Below are positions 1-24,584 of a DNA stretch of 25,959 nt, piece by piece. Position 1 is the first letter of the stretch. Each line of letters opens with the position of its first letter. This stretch comes from Leucosporidium creatinivorum (taxonomy: Eukaryota > Basidiomycota > Microbotryomycetes > Leucosporidiales > Leucosporidiaceae): NCBI GenBank assembly GCA_001600635.1, contig BCKL01000037.1, positions 1 to 25,959 of the forward strand, written 5' to 3'. The notes beneath the pieces were generated by a model. It did not search any database. It saw only the letters and a program-made list of their open reading frames with translations, and was not told where the DNA came from. The position numbers were made by a program, and so were the translations under genes.

Positions 1-1290
1 CTCCTACGTCACACCCTAACCCTAACCCGACCCTAACCCAACCTTAGTTGCCAAGTCCCTCTGCCAACGGTCGAGTGCAAAGTTGCAAGTGGAGTCTGGT
101 GCAGAGTTCAGCCTGTAGTAAAGTATGCAGGGAGCAAGAAACCGTCTCCCCGTCCTGTTTGCCATCTCCGTTGACTCGCAGCAGCAGCCCCAACCCTACG
201 CCAAGTTGAGCCAGCCAGTGCTCTCCCCTGCACCAAGTCACCGCTGCTACACTCGAGGAGTCCTAGCTGGTAGATCTCACTCTGTAGACCCGTGCACTGG
301 CTCTGTAGTGTGGTACGCATCCTTGGTAGCTCCTCGAAACTTGCGCCGAGCCGAGTCCGGCGCTGGCAAGGCAAGCGGCTGTCAGAGCTTCAGACCACCC
401 GTTTGCTGTATTCTAGTAGTCCGAGTGGCGAGTGCACTGTCTTCACTGCACCGTACACTTGGCTCTACGCTCGTCCGGTCCCTCGTACATAGTGGCTCCT
501 CGGTTGTGATCTCGGCGCAACTCTGGGAGACTTTGCTCAGATGGAAGCTCCCTCTTGCATCAGATGCAATACAACAAGCAATGAGATGACTACGCCTTGA
601 TCTGACCGTCACCACTGCAGCTCTCCAAGTGCTCAAGCCTCCCCATTCCAACCCCCAAACCCCGTGCTCGGCGAAGAGCAATTCCTCGCCTCCAGTCGGT
701 TCCACTTCACCTGCGATGCATCACAGATTGGCCACACGACCAAACTTTGTCCTTTGCACCTCCTCTGCAGTCAGATTTTTGACGCCTTCCACATCTTGGA
801 CATCTCGGCCCACTTCTTCTCGCTCGTGAGCCTCGACCTTCGCACCTGAGGTGAAGAGAGCCGAGACCTATTGTGGAGGAGCGTTGAGTGTTGACCTTCG
901 CGAGTTCACCAGCATCTCCCAGCATCACTTACTACTACTCGCTTACAGTAGAGCAGTTCAGCTACTCGAACACACTCGTTTCGTCCTAGCGCAGAGCCCT
1001 CCTCCTCGCCGTCTCGACCCAATCGAGGCTTGGCCTCCTCCCACCTCTCCGCCTTACCGCTCGCGCTTCTCCTCTCCAAGCAGGGCTCTACTACAGCAGC
1101 TCGTTACAGCAGTAGCAGCTACTCTACTAGATTACCCTACAACATCTGTAGTCGATCAACACTCTCGTCAACACCGCCAGCCACCTCTCGACGAGCCCGC
1201 TTCCAAGCTTCGACAAGCAGCCGTCAAGCTCAGCTGTTGAGCAGCAATCGTACAGCACGCTACATCAATCGACCTACAGCTCTCTACACC
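1..1290. other. Non-coding leader and SKN7 upstream region
   Basis: I see no supported coding sequence on either strand here. The open frames are short, lack family features and look like chance frames. The stretch begins with degenerate telomere-type repeats (separate entry) and becomes pyrimidine-rich from about 960 to 1290, with several CTACAG motifs, as expected for the promoter and 5' leader of the gene that starts at 1291. A 5' UTR intron cannot be excluded. Confidence 0.6.
14..46. repeat. Degenerate telomere-like CCCTAA repeat tract
   Basis: Two perfect CCCTAA units are followed by variants (CCCGA, CCCTAACCCA, ACCTTA). CCCTAA/TTAGGG is the telomere unit in many basidiomycetes. The tract is short and imperfect, so it is either an interstitial or subtelomeric remnant or a promoter telobox-type element. 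The sequence does not decide between these. Confidence 0.6.
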
Positions 1291-4200
1291 ATGTCTGGAC
1301 CCGGCGACTACCACCCTCACCACCCTCACGCCTACGCTCCTGGCCCGCCTCACTACGGCGACCCAAACCAGCTCCCACCGCTCAACCCACCAGACCTCCA
1401 GGGCGGTCCATCCACTCGAGGAGGCAAGCGCAAGGCGCTCAACGACGATGAAGACGAGGATGAGAAGCCTCAAACGGGAGGGGGCAAGGAAGGCAAAGGG
1501 GGCGCTTCAGAGTTTGTCAAGAAGCTCTACAGGTGAGTTAATAGGTGCATATCGATGTTTTGATGAGATCGCTGCTGCTGGGAGCCGGAGGAGATCAGGA
1601 GGAGCTAGCGCCGAGCGCGGAACAGCGGAAGGCGCATCGTCGAGACGCGTGCTCGCGAGAGAGGCGGGGCAGTCGTGTGAAGAAGTCAGCAGCAATGTGG
1701 GACGGCATTCGGGTGGTAGGATCGACGATGTGTCGTTGAGCCCGCTGCTCGTCGACGCGGTCCAACCGCTGCAGGCTCGCTTCTCGTCTCTCGAGCCGTC
1801 GCCGAATCTCACTTCCAGCTCAATTGCTCGAGGCGTGCTTGAGCAGACGCGTCGGTGCTTGTGAAGAACGGGCGCTTGGCTGGGCACGATGGCTTCGCGC
1901 CAGGTCACGCTATCGCCGAGCTCGCTCGAGCTTCCGGCTCCGAGGTGCCGGTCTTTCGCATAGCATGAGAGCAAGCTGCTGCTGGCTCTCGTGCTCGTGA
2001 AGTCCGGCACCTCAAAGCCGGTTCCTTGAAACTCTTCGATGGCCGACACGACCACTTCTCACGCCAGTTCGCCGACTGATCTCTTTCTCACTTCGCAGGA
2101 TGCTCGAGGACGGCCAGTTCACCGACATTGTCAGCTGGGGCTACACGGGCGATTCCTTCGTCGTCAAGGTGGGTTTCCGAGTGTAGGCCTCGCTCCCCAC
2201 GCCCTCACTGACCTCGTTTCCAACCGAAACAGGACATGAACTCGTTCACCCGCTCGATCCTCCCTCTCCACTTCAAGCACTCCAACTTTGCCTCGTTCGT
2301 TCGGCAGCTCAACAAGTACGACTTCCACAAAGTCAAGAACCCCGAGGAGGGAGGTAGCCCGTACGGAGAGCACGTGAGTTCTGATTCTCCAGCGTGAACG
2401 CCGAGCGAGAGTCAAGAGCTGATCTTTTGCGCTCGCTTCCTCAACAGACCTGGGAGTTCAAGCACCCTAGCTTCCGCGCCGATATGAAGTCTTCCCTCGA
2501 GAACATCAAGGTGAGCTTGATTTCGACTTCCAAAGCCCTTTTCTCCCCTTCTATGGCCTCCCTCTCCGCTCCCCACGCAGCCGACTCGAGCTCGAAGCTG
2601 AATCTCTGCTCCTCCCACAGCGCAAAGCCCCCGCCCCTCGCAAGTCGACTCCTCAGCCCGCTCGCGGCCGCGGAGCCGGCGGCGCCATCGACCCCATGCT
2701 CGGCGGTGGCGATCTCTCGGGCCTGCAAGCTCAGCTCGACCAGCTCCATCGCGGGCAGCAAGGGATGCAGCAGCACATGAACAGCCTCTCTCAGGACTAC
2801 CAGGCCGTCATCGGCGAGATGATGAACTTTCAGCGCAACATGGTCGCCCAGGATCAGCTCATGCAGAACTTGATTCAGTACCTCGTCAACCTCGAGGCTG
2901 GTGAGTTGCTCTTCATCCCTCTGCCGATGCTGACAGCTGACCCCTTCGTTGCCTAACAACAGACCAAACAGCCGCCTCCAACCCCGGCGCCCCTCAATCC
3001 GATTTCGTCCCCTCCTCGCAAGCTCAAAAGCTCATCTCGACCTACACCGAAGTTGCTCGCGCCTCCTACGAGCAAATGGCCGACCTCTCCCGTCGCGCCT
3101 CCCTCTCGGGCGGCGCTTTCCAGCCCATGCCCCCTCCTCCCGGCTTTGGTCACCTCGACGTCTCGCGCGGGAGGAGGGAAGAGAACGGCGGAGGACCGAT
3201 TGGGCCTCCTGGAGGGTACGGCATCAGGGATGATGGCTATCGAGGACCGGATGGTGGTCATCAGCAGCAGCAGCCTCAACACGGCGGACCTCCCCCTCAA
3301 CAGCAGCAGCAGCAACAGCAGCAGCAGCACGGTGGCCCTCCTCCCCACGAGCAACAGCAGCAACAACAGCAGCAGCAAGCTCCCTCCCACCCTCCTCCAC
3401 AGCACTTCCAGCACCCCAACGCTCCGACCGAAGCTCCTCGACCCGATTCCGCCGATGGTCGTCCAGGCGCAACGAGGAGACAGACCTACGTCCCCGGCTG
3501 GGCCGTTCCGCCGCGTGTGCTGCTCGTGGAGGACGATGCCGTGTGTAGGAAGTTGAGCTCCAAGTTCTTGGAGGTGTTTGGGTGCTCGATTGATGTGGCC
3601 GTGGATGGGGTTAGTGCGGTCAACAAGGTGAGTTTTGGACGTCGAGCTGAGCGCCGAGAGAGGAAGCTGACATCGCGACTCGTACTACAGATGAACCTGC
3701 AAAAATACGACCTCGTCTTGATGGACATCGTCATGCCCAACCTTGATGGTGCGTTGCTGCTGTCTTTCCCTCGGCCGACCGAGCTGACCTTTCCCTCTCG
3801 CCCTTCGCAGGAGTCTCGGCGACCTCGCTGATCCGTCAATTTGACCCCATGACCCCCATCATCTCCATGACGAGTAACTCGGGACCCAACGAGATCATGA
3901 CTTACTTCTCGCATGGTGCGTGGTCGTCGATTCTCCTCACTCTGACTCGGCCGAAGCTGACCTCGCTTGCTTCGTTTTCCCATCTCTCTCAACAGGCATG
4001 AACGACATCCTTCCCAAGCCCTTCACCAAGGAAGGTCTCCTCGGCATGCTCGAGGTTTGTCTGGTCCCCCCACTCAGGCTCTCGAGCAACGGCTGACCCC
4101 TCGGTCCTCTTCCCCTCCTAACAGAAGCATCTGATCCACCTCAAGGTCATGCAGCAGATGGCCGAAATCCCTCGCGCCCTCGGCTTCACCGACAACCAGA

Positions 4201-6819: not shown

Positions 6820-8569
6820 CTACGCCGATCTCACACCTCCCAGCCTCTTCCTCAACGCCCTCAGCACCAACGGCGGGAGCTTCCTCGTCGTCTCGCTCTC
6901 GGCGCTCAGCAATTGCATCACTCCTTCGAGATCCTCCTCAGCCATCTTCATCAAGAAAGCAGGATTGCGACTTCCAATTGCCTCAAAGACGTGCACGTAG
7001 TCGTCGCCGAGGCTGCTATCCTCTGGGATGAGCTTGTTGAGAAAGTGTTGGAGTGAGTCGGTCGCTGAGAAGGGCGAAGGGGAGGTAGAGCGAGTCTGTT
7101 GATCTTGGGAGAGTGTTTGCGCTTTGGAAGAGGTAGCTGGAGTGCGGAAGTCGTCCGAGCAGTCGCTGAGAGGCGAGGAAGTCTCGCGACGACGGCGCTT
7201 GACGTTCGAGGCGAGAGAGGACGAAGACGAGGGTGAAGGAGAGGGTTGACGAGGGCGATGGGCTGGGCTGGACTCGCGCTCCCGCTTGAGAGGACGAGGA
7301 GGAGAGAGTGAAGGTGTCCAGAGCTGGTGGTCGGGAGGAGAGCCCTGCGAGTTCGGCGATGCTAAGGTCAGCCCTCGAGTCGGCGAGGAAGCCATGGAAG
7401 CAGAGACATACCAGAGGGGTAGACGTCCTGTGCGTTATCTGTGGCTTGACGACCTGAGCTACCTCGGGCTCGACAGCAGCGCTCCTCTCCCTCTGCTTTC
7501 CTTTCCCCTTGCCTTTCGGCGCCGACTTGACCGCGCCGCCTCCCTTCTCGAGCGGGTGACTATGCATAGCGCACCGCTCAACGACGACGACCTTCTTGGC
7601 GCTCTTGACTTCGACGCGAACCAACCATCCGCACTTGGCCGCCGTCTTCTTCGCCGAGCAATGCCAGATTGGTCCCGCGCCTTCGTCGGCTGACGAGCAA
7701 ACCGAGAAGCCCTGCTCTTGCGCCCAGCTGCTGAGGGACTTGTTGAGATGCTTGATGGTGCGGAAAGTAGAGAATGAGAGTGGGAGAGGAGTAGAGATGG
7801 TAGGTGAAGCGGGGGACTCGGATGAGGGAGGAGCTGAGACGGAAGGCGAGGGGCGGACCGAGCGAGGGCGAAGTTCGAAGCCGGTGGCGATCTACGAGGT
7901 CAAGTCATCAGCGAGCCACCCTTCAACTAGAACTAAATGGCTTGAACGCACCGACCGAGCAACCTTCTCAGCCTCGACTCCGACCAAGAACCCTTGCTTC
8001 CTCGCCGTCTCGAGCAAATCATCCGCTGAAGTGTCTCCCATTGCCCTCCTCACGTCTTCCATCACCTGATCTTGTGCAACCTCCCTATCCGAAGCCGCGA
8101 ACTTCTCTCGCCCTCCACACCTCTTGAGGGACTTGAGCTGGTCGAGGGCGTACTTGAGCAGATCGGCTCGGCGCTGAGAGATCAGCTTCTCTTGAGCGGC
8201 GGCGTCGGCGGGCGATAGCTTCGATAGACGATGGGTGTGCTTGAGCGTGACCTCGACGACCTTCTCAGAGAGGTCGGCGCCGTCAAACTCGATCTCGACC
8301 GAGTAAGGCGAACGAGAGGAAGAGCGGTCGCAACAGGCGCAGGAGAGGACGATGTTGTACCGTTGAGGTGACTCCTTGGCAATGAAGTCTTTCCGTTCTG
8401 TAGTCGTCGAGGGCAGAAAAATCTGTTAGCCAACTGGAATGAGAGCACCGATGCGAGAAAACGGCTCACGAGCATGCTCGGCCCAGGCGAGGCGGGCAGC
8501 CCTATAGTTGTCCCAGCGAGGCCAACAGGATCTTAGCTCGAAAACCTGGGGTAGAGGGTTGGTCGCCAT
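6820..8569 (-). CDS. Zinc-module gene A: tandem FAR1/WRKY-GCM1-like protein
   Basis: Four minus-strand exons (8569-8470, 8397-7952, 7891-7412, 7344-6820) close in phase to 516 residues. Module 1 (about 10-85) has a FAR1-like helix (DNYRAARLAWAEHA), a Cys cluster (SCACCDRS) and HTH. Module 2 (about 215-290) has a helix ending in WAQEQGFSV, then C-x8-C-x22-HSH. Basic and Ser/Pro linkers with KRRRR, a likely nuclear signal, lead to a helical C-terminus (about 425-516). Intron 1 is phase 1 and intron 2 phase 0, as in genes B and C, so they share ancestry. The acceptor after 8398 was chosen because the nearer TAACAG puts the frame into a stop. Modules of this kind bind DNA in MULE transposases and FAR1/FHY3 regulators. 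No transposase core is present. Function is inferred as a DNA-binding regulator. Module 1 has irregular Cys spacing and may be degenerate. Confidence 0.8.
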
Positions 8570-9137
8570 GGTGTCGTCGAAGATGGAGGAGGAGGAGAGG
8601 AGCGAGCCGAACCGGTTGAAAGCTTGAGAGCGCGAGTGCTCCAAGTCTCCGAGACGCGATCAAGGGCGGCGTGTCGGCTCAGGGGGAATTGGATGGCTTG
8701 AGAAGCCGTATAAGCTGCTTCATACATCGAAGGAGCAGCATCAGAGAGGGCTGCTCCGGTCAGGAAGAGGAAAAGGACCGAGCTCCCCGCGAGACTTGCG
8801 CCGAACAGCCCTGAAAGGACACGGACAGTCTTGTGCGAGCAAGGTAGCATTCTTTGGGCCACATAAAGCATCCTACATGTCCTCCCCACTCCTACCAGAG
8901 CTCTGCGCCGAAGAGAAGACGACGATCGTCAGAGGTTGAACAAGCCGCGTTTGGGGGCAAGAGTAACTGTAGTACAGCAGCGGAGGGCTGAGCAGCGGGG
9001 GATGTAGCTCGTAGCTCCCATCTTGTCCTGTAGTCGAGTCGAAGTTTCGCGACGAAGTGGTCAGAGGCGAACCCTGATTCGCTCCGTCGCCCCTTGCTCT
9101 CCCCCGTCTCGTCTGCTTCTTCGGCTCGCTCTTCGCT
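8570..9137. promoter_or_regulatory. Shared divergent promoter region of genes A and B
   Basis: This 568 bp region separates the start codons of two divergently transcribed family members. I see no supported gene in it. The minus-strand frames that cross it are not conserved in pattern. It contains a TATA-like GTATAAG near 8707 facing gene A. Specific operator sites cannot be named by eye. Confidence 0.5.
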
Positions 9138-10635
9138 ATGGCCGACTATCCTCAGCTGGGGGACAAGTTCCAAACGCCCATAGGCTTCAGGCCCGCTTGT
9201 CATCGGGCAGCTCGTACGTAGAGCTTTCGTTGCGGTCTGAGGCTTTGTTCGCTCACTCCTCGACGCGTTGCAGTGCCCAACCAAGTCCGCTTGCTTATCT
9301 CCAGCGGAGGCCTGAAGGCTCAGCACATCAACTGCAATGCCCTGCCGTACCAGAGCCGTTGCTTCATGCGCCTCGTTGCTCGACCGGAGGATGGACTCTG
9401 GGTGGTCCGAGAGCGTGTGACGGAACACTCGCATTCCTTCACCGACGAGGAGAAGACCTTAGCCGTCTCGAAAACCGCCGACGCTATCGCAAAGCTTGAG
9501 GCAGAGCTCGTGCTCTGGCCCGAGACCGACCGCGCGCTCGCCGAAAGGAGGAGGCTGAATCAGGAGGAGGAGGACGACGAGAACACTGCTAGTCAGGACA
9601 ACAGTCAACGCAGAAGTACTCGCTCTAAACGTGCCCCGAGCAATGCTCAATCTACCTCGGAGCTCTACCCGAGCGCCAAATCCGTCGCCAACGAGGTCGC
9701 CGAGCTGTCCCTCGCTGCTTCTGAGGTAAGTCTGGGCGTGACCAGAACAAGAGCTCCGTATGATACACCTTCCAAACACTGACCGAGCTGTTTTGTGTTC
9801 CTTACAGAGGCATAATGGCATCCTTCCCTTCCCTTCCCCGAACATGGCCTTCCCAAGCGCTCGCGACCTCCTCATCTACCTCTACGCTTCGGCGGAGCAG
9901 CACCAGTTCGGACTGATCCGAAAGGTACCAACTTCGACCGACGTGCAGCTGGTCTGCCAGTACGGCGTGGCCGCCGGCGGCTTATACCCGCTGTGCAAAG
10001 CTCGCTATCACATCACGAAGGGTGCAGACGACTCGTGGAGGATACTCGAGGAGTCGCTCGGACAACACACACATGCATTCTTGGACGATGCGGGGCGGGG
10101 GATATTCCCCGACAAGGCGGTACGCGGCACCGTGAAGGAGAGGAAGCGTCAAGCCGAGCCGAGCAAGAAACGACCTCGCCCGTCACAGCCGGAAGTTCGG
10201 CTCCCTCCAATTCCCTCCCTCCCCCGGATCACTCACTCAGCCTCACTGCCTCACTGTGCGTCAAGCACATGGGATCCCTCACCATCGGCCTCGCTTCGGC
10301 TTCCACCTTCCCCCTCCGCCAGAGTCCCTCTTCGACGTCCAAAGACCACCAACCCAGCTCGTCCACCAGCTAACATCGCCTATCTCCCCACCCTCTCGAC
10401 CTTCCTCACCTCCCTCAGCCCTCGACTTTCCTGCCTTGCCTCACCCCTCCTTCATCAAGCGCATGTCGATTCGCCGGATCGGCTCATGCACTTCCTCAGC
10501 CTTAGCGACCTATCGCTCGACCTCGTACTACGAGATCTGGAGGATTTGGGCTTGTTCGAGCGGCATTTGCTGAAAAAGGAGCGGAAGAGGGCGAGGGAAG
10601 AGGGATGGAGCCTGTGGCGGGAGGTCGCTTGCTGA
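9138..10635 (+). CDS. Zinc-module gene B: tandem FAR1/WRKY-GCM1-like protein
   Basis: Three exons (9138-9213, 9274-9725, 9808-10635) close in phase to 451 residues. Module 1 (about 1-85) starts with a GDKFQT..F helix and has C-x8-C-x21-HSH. An acidic linker and a helix VANEVAELSLAASE follow. Module 2 (about 190-265) starts FPSARDLLIYL and has C-x12-C-x23-HTH. A basic KKRPRPS stretch, a likely nuclear signal, and a Ser/Pro-rich linker lead to a C-terminal helical domain (about 365-440) with TFLTSLSPRL, FLSLSDLSLDLVL and ERHLLKKE. Gene C has the same layout, the same 76-nt first exon and the same intron phases, so the two are tandem paralogues. C2-HxH modules of this type belong to the FAR1/WRKY-GCM1/FLYWCH group and bind DNA. 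The role as a transcription regulator is inferred. The target is unknown. Confidence 0.85.
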
Positions 10636-11282
10636 GTTGCCGAGGTTGAGGATTGTGCCACGCTTTGCAGTTTTGTTGATATATAACATCTAGCTCTTCC
10701 AGTCAGATCGGGTGCAGGGATGCTCACTTCGGGCGAGAGCGAGCAGGCTCAATTCAGCGCCGAGAGGGACTTGGCTTGCGCGCCGCAAGGCTCACCTCTC
10801 GACGCGGGTTGATACTGCACAGACGAGGGGACAGCGAGAAGTGCATACCACCTCCTAACCTCTTACTGTACAGTCAGCACAGTCTCACACGGTAGTGAGT
10901 GCACCGAGGCGAACGGAGTGCGCTCGAGCTCATCGCCGAGATCCCGAGGCGAGTCAGCCTCCAGAGCGTTGGGCGTGGTTGAGCGAGCAGGTCTGCACTT
11001 TTTAAGCTCCGAGAGAGCTACAGCGCTAGCCACGTCGAGCTCTTGGCCCCTGCACAGCGAACGCAAGGCGATGGGCGGTTTCGGCGAAGGAGCATCGCGG
11101 ACTGGCGCTCGAAGGCGGTCCCATGATTTGCAGTAGGTAGCGTACGATGTAGATTTCCGTAGGTCTGGCTCCATCGCAAGCTGTAGTGCAGCATTAACCT
11201 AGCCCATTCAGCTCGGAGCCTTTCGCGCGCTCGAAGCTCTCGCACTTTTGTCCTCCTTACTCTCTCGTCTCGCTTCTTCGTC
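10636..11282. other. Intergenic region between genes B and C
   Basis: This 647 bp stretch holds the 3' end of gene B and the promoter of gene C. It has an AT-rich TGATATATAACA segment at about 10677-10688, possibly a termination or polyadenylation region, and a pyrimidine-rich stretch before 11283. Open frames on the minus strand have no family features. No other gene is supported. Confidence 0.55.
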
Positions 11283-12782
11283 ATGGCCGCCTACCCACGA
11301 GTAGGAGACAGCTTCAATACGCTAACAGACTTCAAGCTAGCCCTCCATCGTGCAGCTTGTACGTCGGCCAGAGCTCATCCCTTCTTCTCGCGTCTCGCTC
11401 GTTCGCTAACTTTCTCGCTCTTAACAGTGCCAGATGGAGTGCGCATGGTCGTCAAGCGGGCAGAGCTACATCATTCAGAACTCGTCTGCAATGGCGAGGA
11501 ATCCTTCGGCTGCACCATGCGCTTCACGGCGGATCTCATCGACAAGCGCTGGGTCGTTCGGCAGGCGTGCTTGGAGCACACGCACGCGTTCACGCCAATC
11601 TCCAAACTAACAGCAGCAGAAAGCTCTGCTGCTGCCATCAAGAAACTCGAGGCGGAGCAGGATCAGCGCAGGCGCGGCCCATCTTGCGAGGAGTCCGAGC
11701 ATTCGGCCGATACCGAGTCGCTAAGCGATAGCAGCTCTGTGGAGGGCAGTCCCCCGCCGGTATCACGTCAAGCGAGGCCACCGCCGAAGCTCAAACCCTT
11801 CCCGGTCGTTGGGGATGTCGCAGATGAGATCGCCGAGCTCATCGCCGAAAGAGTGAGTTCTGCTGTCTACTTCGGCAGATGACCGCGGGTGATTCGCTTT
11901 CAGAGCAGGTGTACTCACTCCTCATCACATCTGCAGCGCGGCATTATCCCTATTCCACCCGCCAGCATGTCCTTTCCCACATCGCGCGACCTTCTCATCT
12001 ACCTTCATACTGCCGCTCAGCAGCACGACTTCAAGCTCTGCCTCTACCGAGCTACACCTAGCAGCACTCAGGCCAGCTTGTACTGTTCTCTGGGCCACTC
12101 GCAGAGTCGACATCGCCCGCTATGCCAGGCTCGCTATCACATCGCCGAGGACGATGACGGCCGCTGGAGGAGGGTCGAGGATACGTTTACGAGGCATACG
12201 CACGTCGTTCTGGATGACGCAGGAAAGCCCATACCCGCTGAGAAGGAAGCATCGCCGGAAGAGGAGGAGCCGAGTGCTTCAGCCGAGCCGACTCGGAGCA
12301 AAAAGCGACCTCGGGTCTCGGAGCCTAGACCTCCCACTCCTTCCCTCCCCGCCTTCTACTCTCTCCCTCCCTCCGCTTCAACACCCAACCTTGCCTCCCT
12401 CAGCCGACAAAACCCAAGCCAGCCACCCCCCTCGGCCTCTCCTCGTCCCTCTCCTTCCCTCACCTCTGCCCCTGCCCCGCCTGCCCCTACACCACCACCT
12501 CCTCCCCCTCGGTTGATAGTCGCCGTCCCAACACCTACAGTGCGCAACACTGCCTACCTAGCCACCCTCACGACCTTCCTCACCTCCCTCAGCCCCCGCA
12601 TCTCCTCGCTAGCCTCCCCTCTCCTCCGAGAAGGTGGCATCGACTCACTCGAAAGGGTCGTCGTCTTCTTGAGCTTGAGTGATCGGGCGATGGATTTGTT
12701 CTTGAGGGAGCTGGAGGGGGTGGGGCTGATGGAGAGGCATTTGTTGAAGAAGGAGGTGAGCAGGGCGTGGGGCGGGGCCTGA
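11283..12782 (+). CDS. Zinc-module gene C: tandem FAR1/WRKY-GCM1-like protein
   Basis: Three exons (11283-11358, 11428-11852, 11937-12782) close in phase to 448 residues. Module 1 (about 1-85) has the GDSFNTLTDFKLALHRAA helix, then C-x7-C-x21-HTH. A helix VADEIAELIAER ends exon 2. Module 2 (about 180-250) starts FPTSRDLLIYL, with C-x12-C-x23-HTH. SKKRPRVS is a likely nuclear signal. A Pro/Ser-rich linker leads to the C-terminal helical domain (about 355-440) with TFLTSLSPRI, SLERVVVFLSLSD and ERHLLKKE. Identical exon architecture to gene B marks a tandem duplication, but the linkers have diverged strongly while Zn ligands and helices are kept, which suggests selection on both modules. Predicted to be a nuclear DNA-binding protein by family logic. 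No enzymatic motif is visible. Confidence 0.85.
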
Positions 12783-16376: not shown

Positions 16377-19300
16377 TTAGAGCGCCTCGACGGGTTTCTG
16401 CACGACGAGGAGAGGGTTAGCGGTGAGGAGCGAGGTCGGAGAGCATACAGAAAGAACATACCAGCGAAGGGTGGAGGAGGACCTGGTGCAGCGCCTTTCC
16501 AGCAGCGACCTGTTCGTATTCGGCCCTCGATCAGCTCGGCACTCTCTTCCCTTCTTCCTCCTCAGCTCCTCAAGTACTCACCATAGGGTACACATGCTCA
16601 TTCTTGACGCAACGGGCATCAAACAAGACGGGCTTGTTGTTATCGTACTCCATAAACTCCTTCATCTTGGCGGGTAGGTCGGCAATGTTGTCGCAGCGGA
16701 TGGCGTGCACGCGCATCGATTGGGCCAGCGCCACAAAGTCGGGGTTGGTCATCTCGGTGTGCGAGTAGCGCTTCTCGTAGAAGAGGTCTGTTGTTTGACG
16801 AATGAGGGGGGAGAGGAGGGAGGGTGTGGGGAGAGGGAAGAAGAGTCAGCTCGGCGCTCGCTCGCTCGGCTCGACTCGGAATCGGAATCGGAACGCGAGA
16901 GAAGAACTGACCCTGCCACTGGAGGACCATACCCTGGAACTCGTTGTTGAGGATGAGGACCTTGACTCCAATATCGTACTGGCTGGCCGTGGCGAGCTCC
17001 ATGGCCGTCATGGAGAAGGAGGCGTCTCCATCAATGTCAACGACAATCTTCTCGGGCGCAGCCACCTTGGCGCCGATGGCGGAGGGGAGTCCGAAGCCCA
17101 TGGTCTGTGGTGCGTGGTGGGAGATGGGAGGGAGAGGGAGAGGGAAGAGGAGGAGCGGGCGTCAGCGAGGGGTCGAGAAGAGACGCCGAGCGAGCGAAGA
17201 ACCGAAAACTCACGCCGAGTCCTCCTGACGAGACCCACGACCTCGGCTCGGTCCAGCGGTAATACTGGCACGCAAACATCTGGTGCTGTCCCACTCCCGT
17301 CGCCACAATGACCTTCTCCTTGCCATGCTGCTCGCTCCAATCATTCAACGCCTTGACGACCTCTTGCGGCTTCATCAACTCGCCCTTCTTACTCGGCTCA
17401 AAGTGGAACGGGTAGTCCTTCTTCCACTGTGCGATCTTGGCGAACCATTCCTCCCGAGCGGGGGGTTGCTCGGGAAGGAGAGGGAGGAGGGCGTTGAGCG
17501 ATTCGAGGACATCGCCCGTGATGGCCACGTTGGCGTTGATGACCTTGTTGACGTTCTTGGGTTGGATCTCGAAGTGGATGATGCCTCCGCGGCCTTCGAG
17601 GGCGGCGGCACGGGCGGCGGGGGCGAAGGCTGTACGAGGTAAAGAGCGACGAGGTCAGCGAGCGCCGAGATGACTGTGGGAAGGGCGAAAAGGAACCCAC
17701 TGTCCACCTTTCCAGTGACACGATCATCGAAACGAGCGCCGAGGGCGATGATGACATCGGCCGACTGCATCGCGAGGTTGGCATACGCCGAGCCGTGCAT
17801 GCCGAGCATGTGCAACGAGTGGGTCTCGTTGTTCTCGTTGAAGGCGCCGAGGCCCATCAAGGTCGTAGTCACGGGGATGTTACCCTGCTGGGAGAGACGA
17901 GCGAGCAATTCGGGTCCCTCGGGGGTGGAGAGCATGCCCTGTCCAGCGTAGATGACGGGCCGCTTGGCGTTGGCGATGAGTTTGGCGGCCTTGTTGAGCG
18001 CAGAGTCCGAGATCAAAGCGGCCTCGTGGCCCGCTTGCGAGGTGGCCGTATGGGTGCGATTCCGGGAAGGGAGGTTCGACTCGACGAGCTCGGGGTGGGT
18101 CCATTTGTAGGGGATCGCCTGGCGGAGGATCGAGGCGGTGACATCCTTGGGCAGGTCGACGAGGACGGGTCCAGGACGACCAGAGGTGGCAATCTTGAAG
18201 GCCTCGTTGATGCGACGGGGGAGCTCGGCAATGTCCTTGACCATGACGTTCCACTTTGTGCAGGGGCGCGAGATGCCGACCATATCGGCTTCCTGGAAGG
18301 CGTCGGAGCCGATGGCGGAAGTGGCGACCTGTCCACAGAAGACGACGAGGGGGGTTCCATCCGAGAGAGCGTCCTGCATGGGCGTCACGACGTTGGTGGC
18401 TCCCGGACCCGAAGTAACGAGGACGACTCCGGGCTTGCCGCTGACGCGAGCGTAACCCTCGGCCATGTGTCCCGCTCCCTGCTCATGGCGGGGCAGGACG
18501 AAATCGAAATGGGGCGAGTTGTAGATGGCATCAAAGACGGGGAGGATGGCGCCGCCGGGGTAGCCGAACACCTTGTCGACCTTGTGGCGGAGCATCATCT
18601 CGTGGAAGATTTGTCCTCCCGAGAGGCCGATAAAGTCCTTGTCGAGGTCATTGGGGGAATTTGGGCGGGCGAGAGGGGCGGCGGCGGGCGAGTTGGAGGG
18701 GGTAGGGACTTGCTGGAAGTTGGCGGCGGGTTGAGGGCGTCTGTTTGGCAGAGTAGCCGTCAGCGATTGTTCGAGGGTAAGTTTCAGTGTAGCTACTAGT
18801 GAATCAGTCGGAGAAGCCTCCGCTGCCTCCAACCAACAGCAGCAGCCCTCCCATCTCTGGACGAAAGCGCCGAGCTCGCTGTTGATGGTGGTAGGGCTCC
18901 CACCCTCGGCGCTGCTTCCCAGCAGGCGAGGACAGCGTTGTCGGCGCGAAGTACTAGACCACCCAGACTACACCCTTCCGTAGTCCAAATAGCTCCAATC
19001 CCTTGCTCTTGCCAGCGCTGGCCCCCGTCTCATAACTCGGATTTGACTCGTCGCCCATCATGCCGGCGAGCAGCTCCCGCGGTCGAACGCCACTCGATCC
19101 GAGCCGTCTCTCGCTCTGAGAGGGATACAGAGCTGTAGTCGACTAGTTCGAGTAGAGCATAGACCACCCCTCAGCCCTCTGACTGCCCTCCTAGTCCCCT
19201 ACAGCGCGAGGGAAGTTTTTTGTTGTTCTCGTGGAGGCGTAATCTCCCGCTGTGTTTCCCATCTCCGTCCAGCAGTCAGACAAGGGTACAGGGTACAGAG

Positions 19301-19855: not shown

Positions 19856-21393
19856 TTAATCATCATCGCTCAACTCACCCAACTTGAGTCCCTCCGCCCT
19901 CCTCCTCATCTCATCATCATCATCATCATCGCTGTCCAACCCCTCATTCCTCTCATACTGCGAAAGATCGACCTCTTCGGCGCCTTCCTCGTCGAACGCT
20001 GCGTCCGAGGTGATGAGTGCGCTGTTGGCAGAGGAGGAGGAGAAGAGGTCCCGGCCTGTTGAAGAATTTGCAAGGCAAGTAAGCGATAGGAGGAAGGGAA
20101 TGGGGAAAGGAAGGCGAGGGGAGGAGGTTCGGCGAGCGAAAGGTCAGCGCAGCCCCTTCTCCTTACACAAGCCCACGCTACCACACCCACACCCAACGAG
20201 AAACTGAAACCTGAAAAACATACCCGACTGCTTCCCCATCCACTTCCTCACCTCCTCCCTCTCCTTCGGTGGCAACCCTTTAACTCGCACTTCCTCCTCT
20301 TTGAGCCTGATCGCCTCCATCTCAGCTTCGAATTTGACCTTCCATGCCGCGAAAGAGGTGGGAGTGACTTTGGTGCCCGCGGTTTTTAGGGCTAGGGCCT
20401 GTTTGGCGTAGGGAGGGAGCTGAGTTAGTGGGGAGTTCGGCGGAGGCGAGAAGGCGAGTGAGGGAAGGCAAGGGAAGGGAAAGGGGAAGGGGAAGAGCCA
20501 GGACGGGATGACTCACCTCCTCCTCCCTCTGCGCCTTTTCATTCTCCTCCTTTGCAATCCTCGCTTTCCGTTCCCTCACCACCTCGGCGATGGAATCTCG
20601 TAGGTACGAGGTGAGGGTGTAGACCATGGCCTTTTGGAGGTCGAAGCGGGGTGTAGAGAGGGGTGGTAGGAGAGGGATTGATGGAGAGTTAGGTGATTGA
20701 GTGGAGGAGGGGCAAAGGGAGGTCGGCGAACAGGTCGGCGGAAGGCAGGAGCGAAGGAAGAGAGGGAAACGAGTCAGCTCCACGTCCTCGACCATACCCT
20801 GCTACGCACCACACACTCACCATCCCCAAACTATCCTCCCCCGCGGCCTTCAACCCATTCACCAACGTCTCGACCTCCTCCTCTTCTAACTCGCCCTCCA
20901 ACACCTCCAGTTCAATCAAGGGCAGTTCGTCCGGGTAGGTAGGGGTGTAGGTGATGGTGAGGTTGAGGGCGTCTGTGTGGCAGGGTAGGGATGTTAGTAG
21001 TCTGATGTGGCGCAGGAGAGAGAGCGAAACGGACATGGCTCGGAGGGGGATTGGACTTCGGGTTCCACGCGGATGGAGAGTTGATCTTCAGAGATGACTG
21101 TTTGTAGTAGATTAGGGGTTAGCTGTCTGCGCTGTGCTGTCCTGTATGATCTGGTACAGCTCGGCGCTGGAGCCAGCAGCTGGAGAAGCGCGTCCTTGCC
21201 CTGCCCCTAGCTAGCTCTTTCTAGCAGCTGTAAGACGATATCAAAGAGAGAGCTTACTATTCAATTCGTCGGGAAAGATGGATTCCAATACTTCCAATTC
21301 AGAGCGGCGTTCTTCGGCGTAGTCTGTAGTAGGGCAGGGGGACGAGGATCAGCTCAGAAAGCAGCGAGAGAGGCAAGAGAGCTCACCGGTCAT
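19856..21393 (-). CDS. GIR2: RWD-domain protein Gir2 (RWDD1/DFRP2 family)
   Basis: Seven minus-strand exons (21393-21387, 21323-21258, 21097-21035, 20972-20821, 20630-20517, 20419-20224, 20055-19856) close in phase to 265 residues. The RWD domain (about 1-105) starts with ERRSELEVLESIFPDEL and has the YPDELPLIELE motif. The helical part GMAMVYTLTSYLRDSIAEVV and a charged helix follow. The DFRP-like segment (about 155-200) has GTKVTPTSFAAWKVKFEAEM and KGLPPKEREEVRKWM. The C-terminus is acidic, ending in SDDD. This matches Gir2 and human RWDD1, which bind the Rbg2/DRG2 GTPase and Gcn1 and act around translating ribosomes. The first exon is only 7 bp. Two junctions are non-canonical in flavour (donor GTCCGT at 21034, acceptor CAAAAG at 20631). 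The protein stays in frame across both. Neighbouring ILV2 is controlled by the Gcn4 pathway, which Gir2 influences through Gcn1. Confidence 0.9.
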
Positions 21394-23815: not shown

Positions 23816-24280
23816 CTACTCCCCCACAGCAGTCTCAGCCTCCCTCGCGCCGTTCTCGCTCTTCCCTTCCCACCCCTCCCTTGCCTCCCTCAGGACCTTC
23901 CTCATCAACCTCCTCTGCAGCAATCCCACTCCCAGATCCATCAAGAACGGATCCCTCATCTCGTCTTCCATGTTGATGAAGCGAGCGAGGAGAGTAAGGT
24001 CCTTGACCCCGCCTTGGTAGAGCGCCGAGCTGAGAGCGCCGAGTGAGGGATGAAGGGAGGAGAGGAAGAGTGTGAGGGTGGGGAGGAAGGTGGGTACGGC
24101 TGAGCGAGGATCCGAGTTGGTGCACGAGGGGGTGGTGGCAGGCGAAATTGCGGGAGGACGAGCGAAGGAGAAAGGGCGAACTGGGCAAGGAGAAGGTTGA
24201 GCGCCGAGGGGAGATGCACGAGCCTTGCTCGAGTGGCTGATAGCATGGTCGTCCACCTCGTCGTCCGAGTTACTTTGGTC
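23816..24280 (-). pseudogene. 5'-truncated copy of a B/C-type zinc-module gene
   Basis: The minus strand encodes a Ser/Pro linker and then the C-terminal helical domain seen in genes B and C: TFLPTLTLFLSSLHPSL, LSSALYQGGVKDLTLLARF, FLMDLGVGLLQRRLMRKVL, with a stop at 23818-23816. The two zinc modules, the start codon and a promoter are absent. The frame closes upstream at a TGA near 24286. The 5' end abuts the A-type fragment on the other strand. The domain sequence is well kept but more diverged than B is from C. It could in theory be the last exon of an unusual gene, but no preceding exon is visible. Confidence 0.65.
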
Positions 24281-24284
24281 CTGT

Positions 24285-24584
24285 TCTCAAGCGCTATCCC
24301 ACGACCAACGAGGACGCTCCTCACCTTCCCCCTTCTCGGCGAACGACTCGCTCCAACATTTTCTCAACAAGCTCATCCCCGAGGACAGCAGTCTCGGCGA
24401 TGATTACGTCCACGTATTCGAGGCTATTGGAAGTCGCAATCCTGCTTTCTTGATGAAGATGGCTGAGGAGGATCTCGAAGGAGTGATGGAATTGCTGAGC
24501 GCCGAGAATGAGACAACGAACAAGCTGCCGCCATTGGTGCTGAGGGCGCTGAGGAATAGGCTGGGAGGAGTTAGGTCGGCTTAG
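24285..24584 (+). pseudogene. 5'-truncated copy of the 3' end of gene A
   Basis: From about 24285 the plus strand matches the last exon of gene A: SLQHFLNKLIPEDSSLGDD, the VFEAIGSRNPAFLMKMAEED block and the identical end GGVRSA with TAG at 24582-24584. By eye about 90 percent of bases match over 270 bp, and only about five of some 82 residues differ, so most changes are silent. Zinc modules, earlier exons and a start codon are missing. The silent bias implies the copy was under protein-level constraint for some time after duplication, then lost its 5' part. The other explanation, a still-expressed C-terminal-only gene, has no visible start. Confidence 0.72.

Follow-up and report, generated by a model that had tools for sequence, protein, structure and literature searches.

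A family of genes with tandem modules of a predicted zinc fold, expanded at one chromosome end of Leucosporidium creatinivorum

The first 25,959 nucleotides of contig BCKL01000037.1 (C37; assembly GCA_001600635.1) of the basidiomycete Leucosporidium creatinivorum, here called the window, contain three neighboring spliced genes, A, B and C, whose products combine modules of a candidate zinc-binding type with a C-terminal domain (Table 1). The three spliced zinc-module genes are real, and they are the telomere-proximal members of a family of 28–29 tail-bearing loci at one chromosome end, spread over ~240 kb, which is a striking single-end expansion. Each of the three genes can be spliced into an uninterrupted frame that begins with ATG and ends with a stop codon, the splice sites being predicted from the sequence. 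The first two introns of A, B and C have phases 1 and 0, respectively, as in the original prediction, and the additional third intron of A is in phase 0; an alternative acceptor for this third intron breaks the frame and was discarded. The short first exons of B (MADYPQLGDKF...) and C (MAAYPRVGDSF...) have a counterpart of the same kind in a paralogue at C37:56783 (MATYPRYGDKF...; MATYPRYGDKFYSITDCKLALYHAA), and the gene A paralogue A2 (C37:54535–56224) has its first exon and intron placed as in A, so that these recurring first exons lend support to the hand-built exons.

The modules of the window were searched for in six frames with a profile of 25 modules from other loci of the genome, every window module being left out, and 20 Markov-simulated windows and the reversed window served as controls. 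Five of the six window modules are recovered at 26.1–45.8 bits, compared with a best score of 10.2 bits among the simulated windows (n = 20) and 6.4 bits in the reversed window. The sixth, module 1 of gene A, scores within the control range; however, a profile of this region from A and A2 matches the module profile in a profile-profile comparison (P 3.4e-5, probability 72%), which makes it likely that A carries a degenerate module here. It had been claimed that B and C each encode two modules and a common C-terminal domain, and that A has one regular and one irregular module; the former is borne out by independent profiles, which find all of these elements, and the latter by the two scores of A (35.3 vs. 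6.2 bits). The C, C, H and H positions are invariant in 24/24 aligned modules, which were collected partly by this very C-C-H-H pattern, and a G and a W are present in ≥90% of them.

The nearest relative of the module with a solved structure is the DNA-binding domain of yeast AFT2 (4lmg), which is the top match of the 24-module profile in the PDB (E 4.2e-4, profile positions 9–89 of 93) and is followed by non-significant matches to two glutamate dehydrogenases (E 0.28) and to WRKY4 (1wj2, E 0.34). With the 16 non-window modules, AFT2 is the sole match up to E 5 (E 3.1e-3). AFT belongs to the WRKY-GCM1 superfamily. Among the 24 modules, Pfam FAR1 matches 12 at E ≤1 (best 9.2e-7) and Pfam AFT matches three (best 0.0039). 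Searched against the genome, Pfam AFT gives no match at E 1, while Pfam FAR1 gives eight matches, seven of them in the cluster; one, at C37:187235–187327, exceeds the cut-off with neighbors in frame (29.1 bits). No SWIM domain is found in the window genes with Pfam. Exon 3 of gene C, together with eight rows from the window, was modeled with AlphaFold2, structure prediction having been proposed as a check on the zinc fold. For module 2 the model gives a helix (16–29) and four strands (32–40, 43–50, 64–71, and 77–84), with the cysteines at the end of strand 2 and directly before strand 3, and the histidines after strand 4. The mean predicted local distance difference test (pLDDT) is 76–88 in six of the eight ten-residue blocks across residues 11–90 and falls to 57 in the loop 51–60. 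Foldseek places AFT2 on DNA first for this model among 350,542 chains (probability 0.85). Profiles, Pfam, AlphaFold2 and Foldseek thus lend moderate support to the predicted zinc fold of the FAR1/WRKY-GCM1/AFT kind, in line with the original assignment to a FAR1/WRKY-GCM1 type. In a WRKY-GCM1-type fold, the DNA-facing edge is thought to be located at strands 1–2; the mean column entropies of strands 1–4 are 2.73, 2.67, 2.57, and 2.22 bits, respectively, and this small excess of variability at the presumed DNA-facing edge is suggestive only.

A tail profile, based on six genes that all lie beyond the window, was used to search for the C-terminal domain of B and C; it yields 63.1 bits for C, 55.8 for a copy at 24091–23876 and 54.2 for B, against a maximum of 8.8 bits in 20 simulated windows. 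Modeled alone (three window rows, B being the second), the tail of C is predicted to form five helices, with a pLDDT of 73–80 over residues 21–90 and a predicted template modeling score (pTM) of 0.49. Among its ten Foldseek matches, the best template modeling score (TM) is that of the ANKS3 SAM domain (4nj8; 0.59 by target, second of 10); the tail is taken to be a helical domain, SAM-like at most. The tail gives no Pfam match over the cut-off, and the arrangement of two modules followed by this domain, which was not recognized initially, likewise finds no Pfam match over the cut-off. Matches of the tail profile in the PDB (Protein A and unrelated chains; 18 up to E 10) were judged to be repeat or tag effects, as for the best of them, 5h7b (E 2.5e-8), no single stretch passes alone. 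The tail of gene A is missed by the B/C tail profile, and a common domain was not accepted from a profile comparison (P 0.017 vs. P 0.12 for the reversed control); A may therefore carry a different C-terminal domain.

The family is almost entirely confined to one chromosome end, as judged on matches at E ≤1e-4, weaker ones being left out; the family searches score the best candidates only, so all counts are lower bounds. Gene B exon 3, used as the query, gives 26 genome matches, of which 21 reach E ≤3.2e-5; all 21 lack an internal stop, and 20 lie on C37 or in the last 26 kb of contig C1. The remaining one, on C3, covers mainly linker, reaches 18.0 bits with the tail profile and was set aside. 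Two other members as queries give matches at E <1e-4 only on C37 or the C1 end (strongest elsewhere: C1:880856, E 3.8e-4), a third has 26/26 matches there, and gene A retrieves only C37 copies at E <0.1. C1 and C37 share 4,514 bases at their ends (99.9% identity), so both seem to be parts of one region of ~240 kb, a join based solely on this overlap. A profile map of the retrieved stretches, rather than of the whole of C37, contains 77 matches, which after removal of overlaps leave 43 modules and 28 tails (23 of the B/C type and five of the A type) in the cluster; a sixth A-type tail at C37:181 kb is weak (E 0.054). As family members helped to build the profiles, the map describes the family and does not test it. 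Two modules precede the tail in 15 cases, three in two (C37:32.1–34.1 kb and C1:1863.9–1866.0 kb), one in seven, which include A and A2 with their irregular module off the map, and none at E 1e-3 in four (C37:23.9, 24.3, 63.6, and 96.2 kb). The family is real and, in the retrieved stretches, consists mostly of open frames. Of the local family of three that was originally proposed, the family stands, but its size was underestimated. Outside the cluster, the map shows the tail fragment on C3 and a module without a recognized tail at C2:627 kb (62.3 bits). This single-module relative lies in a 533-residue open frame (C2:625933–629019) and possibly represents an ancestral type.

The opening bases of the window include CCCTAACCCTAACCCGACCCTAACCC. 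In the whole genome, 12 contigs carry the word CCCTAACCCTAACCC, at 18 places in all. It is located on the plus strand within the first 64 bases of six contigs, C37 included, and on the minus strand within the last 34 bases of C2; it also occurs on C6, C17, C51, C53, and C56, end placement having been read for the other seven contigs. A backwards control word occurs nine times, so the count alone proves little, and it is the place and orientation that provide the proof. As C37 starts in telomere repeat, gene A lies 6.8 kb from the telomere. On the other 11 contigs with CCCTAACCCTAACCC, no family match was found at E <1e-4 with genes A, B and three further queries.

A tree was built from 31 modules. 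In it, module 1 of B groups with module 1 of C and of the gene at 57 kb (support 89/83, below the mark for firm support), and the second modules of these genes likewise group together (96/90); this grouping of first with first and second with second indicates that whole two-module genes were duplicated, and the two-module layout would thus predate the split of the three genes. A and B lie back to back, and the same A-B pair is found again at 54.5–58.3 kb, while a shortened, fused pair of an A-type and a B/C-type tail lies head to head without modules at 23.85–24.58 kb in the window. Paralogues diverge under protein constraint. Between the gene A tail and its module-less copy (24321–24581), nonsynonymous (dN) and synonymous (dS) divergence are 0.030 and 0.54 (dN/dS 0.057), with 2, 3, and 24 differences at codon positions 1, 2, and 3, and this low ratio argues that both copies were constrained for most of the time since their split. 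Seven other exon pairs have dN/dS values of 0.30–0.60, at dS values (0.55–1.89) high enough to be uncertain. Two inverted copies (C37:157102–160623 and C37:176240–179761) differ at only 9/1654 positions across the family gene, including the stretches between frames (~0.5%), in contrast to 29/363 and 105/1472 in the flanks (7–8%). A near-identical gene within diverged inverted copies would fit a conversion-like tract, or the gene having recently been replaced as a whole. An open frame (local 215–757) that lies upstream of the module exon in C37:157102–160623 has no Pfam match (116 residues compared); among the retrieved loci, only the two inverted copies match it clearly. A tyrosine-recombinase-like look of the stretch upstream of the gene at 158 kb was rejected, as Pfam gave no match.

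Table 1. Genes, modules, C-terminal domains and telomere repeats of the window
Feature	Coordinates	Strand	Details
Gene A	8569-8470, 8397-7952, 7891-7412, 7344-6820 (span 6820..8569)	minus	4 exons, 516 aa
Gene B	9138-9213, 9274-9725, 9808-10635 (span 9138..10635)	plus	3 exons, 451 aa
Gene C	11283-11358, 11428-11852, 11937-12782 (span 11283..12782)	plus	3 exons, 448 aa
Gene A module 1, irregular (SCACC...HTH)	8219..8395	minus	6.2 bits, inside control range; likely degenerate
Gene A module 2, C-x8-C-x22-HSH	7544..7789	minus	35.3 bits, window-free profile
Gene B module 1, split by intron 1	9138..9446	plus	26.1 bits for 9327-9446
Gene B module 2	9826..10083	plus	34.2 bits
Gene C module 1, split by intron 1	11283..11594	plus	27.8 bits
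Gene C module 2	11949..12209	plus	45.8 bits; predicted ligands C50, C63, H87, H89 (exon 3 numbering)
Gene A C-terminal domain (A-type tail)	6823..7083	minus	dN 0.030, dS 0.54 vs. 24321-24581
Gene B C-terminal helical domain (predicted)	10372..10602	plus	54.2 bits without window members
Gene C C-terminal domain	12546..12776	plus	63.1 bits; five helices predicted
B/C-type copy tail	23852..24286	minus	55.8 bits; no module found upstream
A-type copy tail	24288..24584	plus	86% DNA identity to gene A 3' end; head to head with 23852..24286
Degenerate CCCTAA telomere repeats	1..60	plus	window begins at chromosome end

The window also contains ordinary neighboring genes, namely a response regulator (2941–3828), an RWD-domain protein (20692–21087) and an acetolactate-synthase-like thiamine-diphosphate enzyme (16643–18967).

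We lean towards the reading that A, B and C encode nuclear, sequence-specific DNA-binding regulators with WRKY-GCM1/FAR1/AFT-type modules that are newly arranged, and that the genes are expanding at one subtelomere. Each module, with a fold supported by prediction, would consist of a helix followed by a four-stranded sheet, one end of which would be closed by zinc (C, C, H, H), and by analogy with AFT2 the edge of the sheet would lie in the major groove, so that two or three tandem modules could read a longer or a two-part site. The C-terminal helical domain may mediate subunit pairing or recruit a partner, pairing being a guess from such domains elsewhere, and a basic stretch (KKRPR) after module 2 of B and C may allow entry into the nucleus. 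Duplication, in part of divergent A-B pairs, and conversion would have multiplied the genes, which would then have diverged. Going further, the chromosome end might act as a factory for DNA-binding specificities, in which genes for multi-module zinc proteins are duplicated and converted and the strands that face the DNA change along with their targets, for example mobile elements or promoters that have been rewired; we regard this extension as doubtful.

Several results weigh against the regulator reading. With only the five window modules as input, AFT2 is not retrieved from the PDB, the top match being CD4 (E 0.2), and the window genes stay below the Pfam FAR1 (PF03101) cut-off of 28.1 bits (C 13.5, B 10, A no match). 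In the model of C module 2, the histidine-bearing block 81–90 has a pLDDT of only 60, and the exon 3 model as a whole, much of whose chain is linker, reaches a mean pLDDT of 62.9 and a pTM of 0.37. The Foldseek match to AFT2 has an E of 0.097, a TM of 0.40 by target and 0.20 by query, and a root-mean-square deviation of 7.2, and the tail has no significant structural match (ANKS3 SAM, E 6.8, probability 0.15). None of the fold tests is strong by itself; each line is moderate, and all agree. The A-B and C intergenic stretches have 15 8-mers in common vs. 17.1 expected by chance, and promoter sharing was rejected for want of a surplus of common words. Finally, ~4 kb with a three-module gene at the joint of C1 and C37 is flanked by inverted repeats, which are at least 1,206 bases long (98.9% identity); as both contigs end at this joint, the repeats are possibly an assembly effect.

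These repeats are among the observations that favor remnants or passengers of MULE or related transposons, in which case the genes would be core-less transposase DNA-binding ends that are still spreading or decaying. FAR1-type domains occur in MULE transposases, module 1 of gene C has a weak match to DBD_Tnp_Mut (E 0.11), and the near-identical tract spans the whole family gene within the diverged inverted copies. However, the MULE core (PF10551) has no match in the genome at E 1, exons being read separately, and none in genes A–C, while the same search is positive in 4/14 control genomes, so the original statement that the genes lack a transposase core holds. A self-comparison of the window (blastn, E 1e-5) reveals no terminal repeats around A, B and C, and the copies are concentrated at one chromosome end instead of dispersed, are under protein constraint and have an added tail domain. 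We therefore regard the transposon explanation as unlikely, while descent of the module from a transposase DNA-binding domain, as for plant FAR1, is possible.

The confinement to one end could also be explained if the proteins bound or silenced subtelomeric DNA rather than regulating genes elsewhere, as the relatives found all lie at a chromosome end with telomere repeat, the one exception being the single-module gene at C2:627 kb. Such a structural role is improbable in our view, as the 11 other contigs with the telomere word have no match at E <1e-4 and the divergence of the paralogues is high for it. A decaying subtelomeric array with little function, maintained by ongoing duplication and conversion, would account for the four of 28 tails without a module match at E 1e-3, the head-to-head tails at 23852–24584 among them, for the loss of the regular second Cys in module 1 of A and for dN/dS values of up to 0.60. 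It is hardly a better candidate, given that all 21 best matches of gene B exon 3 are open, the four ligands are strictly conserved, and the A tail has a dN/dS of 0.057 even relative to the module-less copy. That the fold is retained but binds protein or RNA, for instance in signaling or self-recognition, would agree with strands 1 and 2 being slightly the most variable, which fits the recognition of changing partners of any kind; yet AFT2, the nearest relative of solved structure, is a DNA-binding domain, and we consider this alternative very improbable. A mating-type locus was rejected, as STE3 lies on C25 and homeobox matches (E ≤0.1) lie on C24, C13, C14, and at C1:669 kb, none of them in the cluster, and no link to a mating locus was thus found, which also argues against self-recognition.

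Among known systems, the AFT family of yeast (Aft1 and Aft2) is the closest, as it provides the nearest solved structure by profile and the first match in the fold search and shares the helix, the four strands and the C-C-HxH order. Aft proteins have one such module and function in iron sensing, whereas the genes described here have up to three modules and a helical tail, and Pfam AFT detects only three of the 24 modules and none in the genome search. FAR1/FHY3 and MULE proteins are linked to the family by the FAR1 matches in half of the 24 modules at E ≤1 and by the one genome match over the cut-off, but differ in that the family has no MULE core and no SWIM domain and that the window genes stay below the FAR1 cut-off. 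Two-domain plant WRKY factors have a zinc fold and two tandem modules, an arrangement similar to the one predicted here, although the WRKY4 match is not significant and the WRKYGQK heptapeptide is absent from the 24 aligned modules. TLO genes are found at many chromosome ends. These Candida albicans paralogues of Med2 are likewise an expanded, transcription-related subtelomeric family, yet they encode a Mediator subunit, whereas zinc-type modules at a single end are found here. A zinc fold common to WRKY, GCM1 and FLYWCH was proposed by Babu et al., and WRKY domains are described as too divergent for useful grouping with GCM1 and FLYWCH, according to one paper (PMC4350883), and in Table 3 of another (PMC4469406) three Microbotryomycetes are given without any FAR1 domain. 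Among the matches listed from titles and abstract openings of the open-licence literature, no subtelomeric FAR1-like family in fungi is named. Standard domain annotation nearly misses the family, as only one genome match passes the FAR1 cut-off and the window genes do not. If our reading is true, these genes have turned a known DNA-binding fold into tandem arrays, joined them to a new C-terminal domain and multiplied at just one subtelomere, which would offer a compact system for watching new DNA-binding specificities arise, and the presence of close and distant paralogues together makes this directly testable. A chromosome end that acted as a factory of specificities would resemble the clustered zinc-finger genes of animals in this diversification, but would build on the WRKY-GCM1 fold and on a new tail.

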